Shown: positions 8,261 through 15,152 of the stretch, piece after piece
Numbering within the stretch: the stretch's first letter is position 1
Layout: every line of letters begins with the position of its first letter
Source: Archaeoglobales archaeon
GTDB taxonomy: Archaea; Halobacteriota; Archaeoglobi; Archaeoglobales; Archaeoglobaceae
DNA length: 40,060 nt
Direction: 5' to 3'
Assembly: GCA_003662995.1 (NCBI GenBank)
Contig: QMZC01000009.1
Coordinates: 1-40,060 of the forward strand
Notes under the pieces: model-generated
Database searches by the model: none
The model's input: the letters and a program-made list of their open reading frames with translations, nothing else
Told to the model about the DNA's origin: nothing
Translations under genes and position numbers: made by a program

Positions 8261-10672
8261 ATGGGGTATATAAGAGTTGCTTTGCTGCTTTTGCTGGGTA
8301 TTTGGATTGCCGCAATGGCAACTGCTTTGGCGGAATGTCCTGATGGTTGCAGTTGTTTGACAAAAGAGGAGGCAAAAAAATTTGGATGTCAAATTTGCGA
8401 TAAAGGGAGATAAAGAAATTCAATGTGATAAGGATAAATACTGCTTTAAATGTGAGTGCCCAGAAGGATGCGTTTGTTTAGATAAAGAAACTGCATACAA
8501 ATACGATTTGGAAAAACTCTGTGGTGGCGAGGAAACAATCTGTGGTGAAAGCTCAGCAGGACCAAAATACTGCTGGCAGGGTTATGAATGTCCAAAAAGC
8601 TGTGCATGTTTGACTGAGAAAGAAGCTGAGGAGAAAGGGTTGGAGCTGTGCAATGGTAAAAAGACAGTTTGTGGAGAAAGTGATGGTTTGCTCAAGTTCT
8701 GCTTTGCGGAAAAGGTTTGTCCCAAGGATTGCGTTTGTTTAACAAAAGAGGAGGCTGAGAAAAAGGGCTATACAGAGATGTGCAGCGATAATGTTTGTGG
8801 CTATGAATCAACCACAGCAACCACAGCTCCAACTCCAAAGTACTGTTACAAAGAGGGTTGTGTGCCTCTCTGTCCGGTTAACTGTAAGTGTTTGACTGAA
8901 GAGGAGGCTAAGAAGGTATTTAATTGCCCTGAAAAATGCAGAGATACGAGATGCGGAAGTAAGACTGTTGATGGTACGGAAGTTTCAATGTACTGTTACA
9001 AGGAAACTTGTAATGCAACCGTTCTCTGTCCTGTGGGTTGCGAGTGCATGACGGAAGAGAAGGCTAAGGAACTTGGTTACAACGTCAGATGTGGTAATAC
9101 AGAATGTGGAAACTTAAAAGACAACGTTGTTGAGAATACTGCTACAAGAAACTCTATACTTGCCCAGAAGATTGTGACTGTCTGAGCGAAGAAGAAGTCA
9201 AGAAGTACGAAAGTGCAGGCGTAAAACTTGAGAGATGCAGTGACAAACCGTGTGGAGATGGAAAGTACTGCTACAGGAAGGTGGAGTGGACATATCCCCA
9301 AGATTGCATTTGTTTGAGCAAGGATGAGGGGTTAAAAGAGGGTTACGACTTCTGCATAGATTCTGCTGGGAATCTAATAAGGTGTGGAGTTGTTAATGAA
9401 AAAACAGGAGAATACAAGTACTGTTTTAAGAAGAAGGTTGAGAAGTGCCACTATGACGAAAATAAGCAGATTTGCATAGGTTACTGTGCTGAAAATGCCA
9501 GATGCGTAATGAAAACGGACTATGAGATTTGTTACGAGGAGTGTAAGAAGAAAGTTGAGGATTGCATGTCAACAATGTCATCTGAGGAGTGCAGAAAGGT
9601 GTATGATGAATGCATTTCACAGTGTAAGCCATCCTGCAAATGCATAGGCTACGCTTGCCCCGAAGGGTGTAGGTGTCTGGATACCAATGAGGTTGAAAAA
9701 TACAAGGAGGAAGGATTCAATGTTGTGAGATGCAGTGACAAACCGTGTGGAGATGGAAAGTACTGCTACAAGGTTGCAAAAGAATGCTACTTTGATTATG
9801 AGAAGGAGCAGTGTGTTGGAAGCTGTAAAGTGGGTATTTGCAACTTGAACACGATACACAGGGATCCTGACACCAACAAAATCGTCTATGCTGAGTGTCG
9901 TTGCAAACCAATAAGTGTTTGTAGTGAGGGTTGCGCTTGTTTAACAAGAGAAGAGGCAATTGAGAAGTTTAGTAATCCTGTGCTATGTAATAATCAGCCT
10001 TGTGGAGTAGAGTCAGCTGGGCTTGCAACTGCTAACGCATACATCAACAAGTACTGTTTTAGAGAGGGTATGGAAGTCTGTCATTATGACAGGGAAAAGC
10101 AGCAGTGTGTTGGAAGCTGTGAGAAGGGAGAGTGTAAAATGTTTGAGGATGCTTACGGCAATCCTTTCTGCGGATGTTTAGCGAAGCTTGAGGCTGTGAG
10201 TGGAACGATCGTTGAGAGGGTTCTTCCAGACACTGCCCAGCCATTAACGTGCATACCAGTAAAATTGGTTGTAAAACCCGGAAGGGATTTGAAGAGACTG
10301 TCCATAGTCGAAACGTATCCTTCAGACTTCACATTTAAGGGAGCAAACGTACCAACTTTTTACTATCCGAGCATAATCTTCTTCTCACTGGAAGATGAGA
10401 ATGGTTTAGATAAACAGACAATAGAATACAAGCTTTGTTTACCGAGAGATGCAATGGGTGAGTACTACTTCAAAGGAATATGGGAAAGTGAAAATAAGTC
10501 GAAAGAGATAACTGGGGACAATACGTTGAGGGTCGTTCCACAATTGACCAACTGGCCCCCATGCCCAGTAACAGATCAAATGTTGGGCAGCTTTCTCGAC
10601 CAATGGTCAAAAGGAGAGTTGTCGGATCTTGAGTTGTTGCAAGCAGTAGAAGTTTGGAGCGAGGGGTGTTGA
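8261..10672 (+). pseudogene. secreted cysteine-rich repeat protein, about 803 residues, with two compensating frameshifts
   Basis: ATG 8261 opens a signal peptide (VALLLLLGIWIAAMATALA, cleavage before ECPDG). Ten modules follow, each built on CPxxCxCLTxEEA, then one or more C and CG, then YCYK; residue count is near 90 Cys. Modules 8-10 add a second unit (C-x-Y/F-D-x3-K-x2-C-x-G-x-C). After the repeats comes a beta-rich domain (VERVLPDTA to GDNTLRVV) and a dockerin-like end (PVTDQMLGSFLDQWSKGEL, LLQAVEVWS). The first frame stops at 8410; removing one base in AAAGGG (8402-8407) joins it to the frame running to 9185. That frame must gain one base near 9130-9137 to join the last frame, giving EYCYKKLYTCPEDC. 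Parts without the shifts are 8382-9185 and 9281-10672. Function unknown; an extracellular, disulfide-rich or metal-binding surface protein is inferred. It may be intact in the cell if the shifts are errors. Confidence 0.7.
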
Positions 10673-10674
10673 AG

Positions 10675-11178
10675 ATGAAAAAGCTACTTCCAATTTTTTT
10701 GGTGTTGATAATGGCTACAATGGTTACCGCTTCAGCCCAAGTAACTATTACGAGGGACTTGCCAGATTCTGCAACGATTGGTGAAGAGGTGACTGTTACC
10801 CTATCAATAAAAATTGGCAGTGATAAGCCTGCTGGAGCAATAATTGAGGAGAACATTCCTGATGGTTTTGCCTACGTTTCAAGCAGTCCAGAGGCAACTA
10901 AAAGCGGAAATACGCTAAAATGGGCGTTTTATGGATCTAACTTAAAGGACATGGAAGTCAAATATACGTTAAAGGCTGAAAAAGCAGGAAAGGCTGAGTT
11001 TGAAGGAACCGTAACAACTTTGCTTGGAGTTGAGAAGATTGGTGGAGATAATACAACAGAGGTTATTGCTAAGGCAGAGGCGACAAAAACTTCTCCACAA
11101 GAAAAAGGTACACCGGGCTTTGAGGAGGCGTTTGCTGTCATAGCCATACTCGGCGCATTAGCTGCTAGGAGATTTTAA
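10675..11178 (+). CDS. PGF-CTERM-anchored surface protein
   Basis: A 167-residue protein with an N-terminal signal peptide (MKKLLPIFLVLIMATMV), a beta-rich domain, and a C-terminal tail of PGF, a hydrophobic helix (AFAVIAILGALAA) and ARRF. That tail is the PGF-CTERM signal cut by archaeosortase A, so the protein should be held at the cell surface through a lipid. The domain (RDLPDSATIGEEVTVTLSIK to GDNTTEVI) looks homologous to the penultimate domain of the cysteine-rich protein just upstream. ATG 10675 lies two bases after that gene's stop and has GAGGGG upstream, so the two are an operon. It may act as the anchor or receptor for its neighbour; that is inference. Confidence 0.8.
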   Translation: MKKLLPIFLVLIMATMVTASAQVTITRDLPDSATIGEEVTVTLSIKIGSDKPAGAIIEENIPDGFAYVSSSPEATKSGNTLKWAFYGSNLKDMEVKYTLKAEKAGKAEFEGTVTTLLGVEKIGGDNTTEVIAKAEATKTSPQEKGTPGFEEAFAVIAILGALAARRF

Positions 11179-13010: not shown

Positions 13011-13277
13011 ATGGCAGAAAAAGTTAGGGATAGGGCGCATCATGAAAAGCTTTTCAAAGCATCTATGAGTCCAATAAGGAGGAAAATGATTGCAACAATT
13101 GGAATTTACGGTAAAACGAGGGAAGAGCTTAAAGAAGAGCTTAAACAGGAAATAAAGTTGTCGGATTTCCAGTTCAAGTTCAACTTAGACTGGTTGATGA
13201 GGGAGGGTTTTGTTGTTGAAAAAGACGGAAAGCTTGTTTTGACCGATGACGGTATAGAGTTGCTTGAAGCTGGCTAA
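13011..13277 (+). CDS. small winged-helix DNA-binding protein
   Basis: An 88-residue protein with helices around [21 protein letters not shown], a helix-turn-helix region ([18 protein letters not shown]) and a wing-like end ([18 protein letters not shown]). The pattern is that of a stand-alone winged-helix regulator. A TATA-like box (attataaaac) sits about 25-30 bases upstream, so it probably has its own leaderless transcript. It converges with the acyl-CoA ligase gene and overlaps its stop by 4 bp. Target unknown. Confidence 0.7.
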
Positions 13278-14981
13278 CCTCTAGCTCTTCCCATCTCCTC
13301 CTCCTTCAACACCCTCCTCAAAACCTTTCCAACAGCTGACTTTGGAAGTTCATCCCTAAATTCAATTATTCTTGGAACTTTGTATGCAGCCAACCTTTGC
13401 CTGCAAAATTCTGTTATGTCTTCTTCCGATATTTTCTCCTTAAACTCATCTTTCAGAACGATGAAAGCCTTTACAGTCTCACCCCTATACTCGTCTGGCA
13501 CACCAATAACAGCAGCCTCAACAACTGCCTCATGTTCATACAATACTTCTTCAATCTCCCTCGGATACACGTTGTAGCCACTCGATATTATGACATCCTT
13601 CTTCCTATCCACAATGTAGAAGTAGCCATCCTCATCAAACCTTGCCACATCTCCAGTTAACACCCATCCGTTAATCAAAACCTTCTTTGTCTCATCCTCC
13701 ATCTTGTAATAGCCTTTCATGACTTGTGGCCCTTTAATAGCTAACTCCCCAACCTCGCCTACGGGCAAAATTACCCCTTCATCATCAACTACCACACTTA
13801 AAGTGTCTGGAAACGGAATTCCAATGCTACCCTCCTTGTTAACTCCATAAATCGGATTTCCGTGGTAACGGGAGAGGTTTCAGATAACCCATAACCTTCA
13901 ACAAGTTTTCCACCCGTTATCCTTTCAAATTCCCTCTTGACTTCAATTGGTAATGGGGCAGAACCGCTTATGCAAGCCTTTATGGAACTTAAATCGTACT
14001 TTTCAACGCCCGGATAGTTGTTTATCGCATTGAACAACGTTGGAACTCCACAAAATATCGTAACCCTGTGTTTCTGTATTGATTTAAGTACCCTTGGTAT
14101 ATCCCTTGGGTCTGGAAGCAAAACTATCTTTGAGCCTAACAGAATTGGAGCGTTCATGCTCGTTGTCATCCCATAGACGTGGAAGTATGGCAATACACCT
14201 AAAAACACATCATTGTGACTGGCATCAACCACCCATTCAATCGTCTGATATGCATTTGCAACTAAGTTGTAGTGAGTTAACATAACAGCCTTGGGCAAAC
14301 CTGTTGTACCGCCTGTGTACTGGAACACTGCAACATCTTCTTTCGGGTCTATATCTACCTCTTTCCTTTTTGCATTGTATTTCATTACATCCTTCCAGTA
14401 AACTACCTCCCTCCTACCCTCAACCTTTACTTTAGGTTTTTTAAGTGGATATAGTAAGATTAATGGGAAAGGCAGATAATCCTCAATCTTGCAGACAATT
14501 ACTTTTTCAATCAAACCATCATCGATGAGTGGTTTAATGTTTGGATAAACGAATTCTACTGCAAAGGCTATTTTAGCCTCGCTGTTCTCTGCTAAATATC
14601 TCAACTCTCTTTCAGTATACATCGGATTTCCTTGAACCACAACACCTCCAGCCTTTAGAATTCCGTAATATCCAGCTATGTAGTGTGGCGTATTAGGTAA
14701 AACCAATATAACCCTGTCATTTTTTCCACACCCTCATTTATCAAAAAATTTGAAACTCTATCGCCCATCTCATTCAATTCTTTGTAACTTATTTTTCTGC
14801 CTAAAAAGTCTATTGCTACCTTTTGAGGATATTTTTTAGCGGAGCTTTCTAATGAAACAAATAGGGGTTCCTCGGGATAATCAATATGCTCCCTAACACC
14901 TTTATCGTAATGCTTTAGCCAAATTTTGTTAATCTCATCCCCGTTAACATCAACTATGTTCTTCCCCTCAACACCCAACAT
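13274..14981 (-). pseudogene. long-chain acyl-CoA synthetase (AMP-forming), disrupted by two frameshifts
   Basis: Three frames together give one ANL-superfamily ligase of about 569 residues. The first (from ATG 14981) covers the N-terminus to NEGVEK; after an A6 run (14720-14725) one base is missing and the next frame continues NDRVILVLPNTPHYIAGYYG. It holds the P-loop YTGGTTGLPKAVMLTH and [10 protein letters not shown]. Near 13861-13872 one more base is missing, after which the third frame gives [39 protein letters not shown] and the catalytic Lys region [11 protein letters not shown]. All catalytic motifs survive, so decay is recent or the breaks are read errors. Both shifts go the same way, so the product is not restored. 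ATG 14981 is chosen from the TATA-like box 25 bases upstream. An intact enzyme would activate fatty acids for beta-oxidation. Confidence 0.85.
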
Positions 14982-15001
14982 TAATATGAATAGTAAACAA
15001 T

Positions 15002-15010
15002 ATCTTAAAT
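15002..15010 (-). promoter_or_regulatory. TATA-like box of the acyl-CoA synthetase gene
   Basis: On the minus strand it reads atttaagat, centred about 25 bases before ATG 14981. The promoter therefore looks intact although the coding region is broken. Confidence 0.45.
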
Positions 15011-15152
15011 AATTTTCCACGATTTATTTTTACAAATTTTGTTTTATTGAATGTTACATGGGATATTTTACTCAATTTTCAAATTAAAGCAATTGAAAAT
15101 GATATGCATGAAACAACACAAACTACTTATTTAATCTCAATAAACTTAAGTT

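Follow-up and report, generated by a model that had tools for sequence, protein, structure and literature searches.

A cysteine-rich repeat protein and its anchored neighbour in an Archaeoglobales archaeon: a candidate surface-held rod built from an undescribed six-Cys module

What might an archaeon do with a secreted, cysteine-rich repeat protein that belongs to no described family, and is the gene that encodes it intact? The question is raised by a locus in the window, the whole 40,060-nucleotide stretch analyzed here (contig QMZC01000009.1 of assembly GCA_003662995.1). A preliminary description, made from the sequence, had placed at 8261-10672 a protein with a signal peptide, about 90 Cys in about 800 residues, ten copies of a repeated module, a beta-rich domain and a dockerin-like end. 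The analysis confirms the position, the signal peptide, the ten copies and the beta domain, and gives the actual size as 803 residues with 92 Cys, ending in a helical C-terminus. The features of the locus are listed in Table 1.

Table 1. Features of the repeat-protein gene and of the partner gene, in window coordinates.
Feature	Position	Strand	Comment
Cys-rich repeat-protein gene	8261..10672	+	803 aa, 92 Cys once two single-base frame shifts are bridged; intact 816-aa A. fulgidus ortholog
Putative signal peptide MGYIRVALLLLLGIWIAAMATALA	8261..8332	+	Assigned from sequence
Module A1 (six-Cys)	8336..8447	+	Spans break 1; without counterpart in A. fulgidus ortholog
Frame break 1	8407..8409	+	One surplus base between frame 2 and frame 3
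Module A2	8457..8576	+	
Module A3	8589..8705	+	Structure modelled
Module A4	8718..8849	+	Structure modelled
Module A5	8871..8999	+	
Module A6	9027..9145	+	Spans break 2
Frame break 2	9134..9137	+	One base short, return to frame 2
Module A7	9161..9274	+	
Module A8	9293..9427	+	First Cys changed to Tyr (TAT)
Module B1	9446..9643	+	Carries inserted CxxxC-type stretch
Module A9	9656..9769	+	
Module B2	9785..9904	+	CxFDxxKxxCxGxC...LNTIxRDP...CxC
Module A10	9920..10060	+	
Module B3	10079..10177	+	
Beta-sandwich domain	10208..10540	+	Homologous to DUF11-like domain of partner; predicted fold like cohesin and fibrillar-adhesin domains
Duplicated helix pair, Cys at either end	10562..10669	+	Dockerin-like, without Ca loops; C-terminal
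Partner gene	10675..11178	+	Signal peptide, DUF11-like domain, PGF-CTERM membrane anchor; also adjoins the ortholog in A. fulgidus

As assembled, the region has no single open frame from 8261 to 10672, and two one-base shifts, at about 8408 and 9135, have to be bridged, so that the protein is read as 8261-8407 in frame 2, 8409-9134 in frame 3 and 9137-10672 in frame 2 again. The A. fulgidus ortholog is a single frame of 816 aa with 56.5% identity to the window protein, and it retains 83 of the 84 Cys of the window protein that are aligned. Both breaks are probably assembly errors, because a neighbouring enzyme gene is likewise broken and the ortholog is intact. This enzyme, of AMP-binding (acyl-CoA synthetase-like) type at 13277-15020 on the minus strand, is split into three frames that jointly cover one Pfam profile, which would reflect either indels in the assembly or decay of nearby genes as well. 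Programmed frame-shifting was rejected, as the two shifts are opposite, no slippery site was seen and the ortholog has no break.

The alternative that the gene is decaying, and with its two frame shifts and lost Cys is a pseudogene in this organism, is unlikely. The two breaks and the Cys-to-Tyr change in module 8 agree with it, as do the homologous protease-type genes on contig C22 of the window genome and in A. fulgidus, which are also frame-broken. However, the split of an unrelated enzyme in the window points to assembly indels, and the piece between the breaks is free of internal stops and is conserved (57.1% identity to the ortholog) like the piece after them (56.7%).

With the frames joined, the protein consists of ten A modules, three B modules that sit among and beyond the last A modules, the beta domain and the helical C-terminus. 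The A module is a six-Cys domain of about 40 residues with the consensus C-P-x2-C-x-C-[LM]...A...C...C...Y-C-[YF], and all six Cys are present in every window copy except A8. A loose form of the six-Cys pattern finds eight full modules in the window protein, compared with at most one in any of 2000 shuffles of the same residues. The motif CPxxCxCLTxEEA, around which the ten copies had been described, is too narrow: the copies are there, but only three of the ten match it strictly and copy 8 lacks the first Cys. Within B1, the insert at 9530-9643 shows a repeated CxxxC spacing and resembles a disulfide-cross-linked helical hairpin.

The regularity of the A module extends beyond this protein. 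The six Cys all align in 70 pattern matches from 17 proteins, and in 29 aligned module pairs all twelve Cys columns are invariant. AlphaFold2 applied to these 29 sequences gave a mean pLDDT of 81 and compact modules, each consisting of a strand, a helix and a hairpin. The preliminary description had named the modelling of one module and a search for it in other archaea as checks. A profile of the A module detected it in 23 of the 393 genomes sampled from the phylum (17 of 136 genera). Neither the protein nor the module alignment has a meaningful match in Pfam, NCBIfam or PDB sequences, in keeping with the earlier remark that the architecture has no assigned function, and Foldseek of the module model against PDB folds returned no match, a method that is weak on domains so small. 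The papers searched included none that treats the A. fulgidus gene or modules of this kind. The A module is thus a recurrent secreted domain that lies outside all the family libraries and structure collections searched.

Among named genomes, carriers were found with a four-row alignment, a ten-row alignment being too diverse, in ANME-1-THS, Archaeoglobales, Methanoregula, Methanoculleus and Chloroflexi, together with a weak Altiarchaeales record; a scan of the named genomes with the window protein as query gave no match, its seed patterns being too specific. The view that such a protein is special to an anaerobic thermophile is not supported by this distribution, since the module occurs in mesophilic methanogens and Chloroflexi, and Methanoregula has a 101-Cys equivalent. 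The Chloroflexi proteins (loci L055, L062 and L063) carry four to eight A modules after an unrelated N-terminal region, and judged by sequence the presence of A modules there suggests transfer between domains of life.

The module is often N-terminal in secreted proteins with CARDB, papain-type protease (Peptidase_C1), transglutaminase-like or M64-like domains, the last two assigned from Pfam scores below the cut-off, and it also builds enzyme-free repeat proteins such as the 101-Cys protein of Methanoregula. The window genome itself has, on contig C22 (L006:2864-6692), a frame-broken papain-type protease gene with the same A module and CARDB-like repeats. A module/CARDB-type gene of A. fulgidus with an HEYGH metallopeptidase-like motif (L038:1784-4982) lies in three frames though the genome is finished, and frame breaks recur in this family of module proteins.

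Beyond the modules, the C-terminal part of the protein leads to the adjoining gene. The partner gene starts two bases past the stop of the repeat-protein gene, and its product ends in a PGF motif, a hydrophobic helix and a basic end, which score 19.9 bits against PF18204 (cut-off 18.8) and 17 against NCBIfam TIGR04126, below the cut-off of 24.5. PGF-CTERM motifs are predicted to tie proteins covalently to membrane lipids (PMC9012536). The match of the partner to DUF11 (PF01345) has an E-value of 1.2e-4 and 22.8 bits, where the cut-off is 24.6. The beta domain of the repeat protein is homologous to this partner domain (E 3e-6).

The predicted fold of the beta domain was compared with known structures using the single confident model of five; for the beta/tail region the best model reached a pLDDT of 80 and the others were near 40, with an alignment of two rows. 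Foldseek with this model gave a fibrillar-adhesin domain (E 2e-6) and, as the second match, the A. fulgidus cohesin 2xdh (E 8.9e-6, TM 0.52/0.59), followed by many immunoglobulin domains at lower rank. At the profile level the likeness of the beta domains to archaeal cohesins is weak (hhalign probability 5.8%), and the Cohesin family (PF00963) has no match across the window genome.

The dockerin-like terminus of the preliminary description holds in part. The tail consists of a helical repeat of 17 residues in tandem copies, which forms two helices in the predicted model. For the two orthologs, the self match at an offset of 17 was reached in 35 and in 8 shuffles, out of 5000 each. The likeness to a dockerin is limited to this duplicated helix pair: the DxNxDG calcium loops are absent from the repeats VTDQMLGSFLDQWSKG and LSDLELLQAVEVWSEG, and Dockerin_1 (PF00404) matches neither the tail, even at an E-value of 10, nor any other part of the window genome. 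The same search recovers the A. fulgidus dockerin. The tail is not clearly related to that dockerin, and is weakly related to Trp-bearing repeats with a DxNxD-type loop in archaeal proteins of two other genomes (G020 and G286). Two proteins (L086 and L107), one from the Archaeoglobaceae family and one of PKD type from a different family, have such Trp-bearing C-terminal helix repeats with a DxNxD-type loop, and by their sequence these repeats may connect dockerins with the tail of the window protein.

In A. fulgidus the partner gene also lies directly behind the ortholog, the gene ends overlapping. Strong matches to the partner gene and to the end of the repeat protein were found only in the window genome and A. 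fulgidus, 2 of 55 family genomes, and the cassette is therefore patchy; a search of viral contigs with the partner protein gave no match. It is common for a module gene to have behind it a gene for a short protein with a C-terminal membrane anchor, and the ends of the two genes often overlap. Across archaeal loci, a short C-terminally anchored protein is encoded directly downstream of 12 of the 21 module ORFs counted as anchorless (the window's included) and of 24 of 276 other genes, the partner genes themselves being counted within the 24 (Fisher p 2e-7, a value that overstates independence because the loci share ancestry and some are near relatives). The module proteins of two ANME-1-type loci bear their own anchor, and no recognizable anchored partner was found at the loci of the Methanoregula relatives. 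The partners of transglutaminase-like proteins are PGF-CTERM proteins or weak DUF11-like matches, and those of module-bearing proteases are DUF333 proteins; behind the C22 protease gene of the window genome, past a frame break, lies a gene for a DUF333 protein whose end resembles an anchor. DUF333 proteins lie directly behind papain-type proteases in three genomes (L038:9079-9717, L006:2864-3550 and L049:8233-8775), where they may serve to tether the protease to the surface or to inhibit it.

We propose, and give about an even chance, that the protein is a disulfide-hardened rod which its partner keeps at the cell surface and which acts in adhesion or scaffolding. The repeat protein would be exported and its modules oxidised to rigid beads, presumably with three disulfides per A module; the disulfides are argued from the fact that the six-Cys modules are invariant in secreted proteins. 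The beta domain and the duplicated helix pair may then dock onto, or assemble with, the small co-encoded surface protein, which an archaeosortase would fix to the membrane through its PGF-CTERM signal, so that the repeats project from the cell surface as a rod for multivalent adhesion or scaffolding. On secreted enzymes, proteases among them, the A module would likely serve as a targeting or tethering part for that same surface or matrix. The modules, the conserved Cys, the pairing of the genes, the homology of the domains, the PGF-CTERM match and the reuse of the module in enzymes are observed; disulfide formation, docking between repeat protein and partner, and a function in adhesion or scaffolding are inferred. 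A role in surface adhesion or scaffolding is the most economical reading, because the module is reused on very different secreted enzymes and the single-chain ANME-1 versions are self-anchored. The preliminary description had pointed the same way, to an extended protein rich in disulfides that is secreted to the surface and ends in a docking-type part, and the six invariant Cys per module, the signal peptide and the anchored partner gene support this.

A structural matrix or sheath, in which disulfides between chains lock them into a fibre or coat and the anchored partner serves only in assembly, would also suit a Cys-rich, repetitive and surface-linked protein, and the module-bearing transglutaminase-like relatives could cross-link proteins. 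This reading is rather improbable, as the even and invariant Cys count per module suggests pairing within the module and leaves few free Cys. Less credit still is given to multi-headed protease inhibitor or regulatory modules, by which the repeat protein would restrain the nearby papain-type protease of A. fulgidus in the manner of Kazal or TIL chains. The small Cys-rich modules stand in tandem, and in A. fulgidus a papain-type protease with the same module is encoded two genes upstream of the repeat-protein gene; however, the A module is also present on transglutaminase-like, M64-like and enzyme-free proteins, the protease gene of the window genome is on a different contig (C22), and searches of Pfam inhibitor families and PDB folds gave no match. 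An extracellular metal-binding protein, whose Cys clusters would keep thiophilic metals such as Fe or Zn at the surface of the cell, is very unlikely: the 92 Cys, a CPxxCxC spacing able to coordinate metals and the largely anaerobic carriers fit it, but six invariant Cys per secreted module are the usual sign of three disulfides, the protein has only three His and the module is fused to hydrolase-type domains rather than redox proteins. A multiheme cytochrome c, and with it c-type heme binding, is unlikely because CxxCH occurs nowhere in the protein.

If the reading as a surface-held rod is extended, the A module may be a widespread surface domain of archaea that has so far gone undescribed. 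Module protein and anchored partner may then form a general two-gene system of Halobacteriota that holds secreted enzymes and adhesins at the cell surface, through a docking pair that works without calcium and is a parallel to cohesin and dockerin. This generalization is offered as a possibility on the doubtful side. The gene pairing predicts how these archaea retain secreted proteases and other enzymes at the surface, and since A. fulgidus is culturable and has an intact copy, localisation and binding are directly testable.

Among known domains, Kazal, TIL and LRRNT domains are comparable in being short, Cys-rich and extracellular, LRRNT also in its CPxxCxC-like opening. The A module differs from them in spacing and matches none in sequence or fold in Pfam or PDB.

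The closest counterpart is the A. fulgidus ortholog (genome G129, C1:1749869-1752319; L038:9870-12320), which has ten A modules, B modules, the beta domain, the helix tail and a downstream DUF11-like/PGF-CTERM gene as in the window. It differs in its one intact frame, in having gained one module and lost another compared with the window protein, and in the protease genes adjacent to it.

Non-cellulosomal cohesins and dockerins have been described from archaea, with binding verified, and ANME archaea have numerous proteins of both kinds (PMC9012536). Genome G129 is recognized as A. fulgidus because it contains the cohesin sequence of PDB 2xdh, a structure attributed to that species, and its cohesin and dockerin genes follow the order of the window pair, a long secreted protein ending in cohesin and dockerin and then a cohesin with a PGF-type anchor. 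The predicted beta fold of the window pair may be similar to that of this non-cellulosomal system. The window pair is unlike it in lacking DxNxDG loops, in matching neither cohesin nor dockerin in Pfam, in its weak profile similarity and in a tail that is a Trp-bearing repeat.

Two Methanoregula proteins with 101 and 84 Cys (L064 and L066) resemble the window protein in being enzyme-free and in running from several to ten A modules into B modules, but they have an amphipathic end in place of the beta/helix tail, and an anchored partner was not found for them. The ANME-1-THS module protein (L052) is secreted and carries A modules in tandem like the window protein, and differs in joining its own beta-type domain and PGF-CTERM to them in a single chain.
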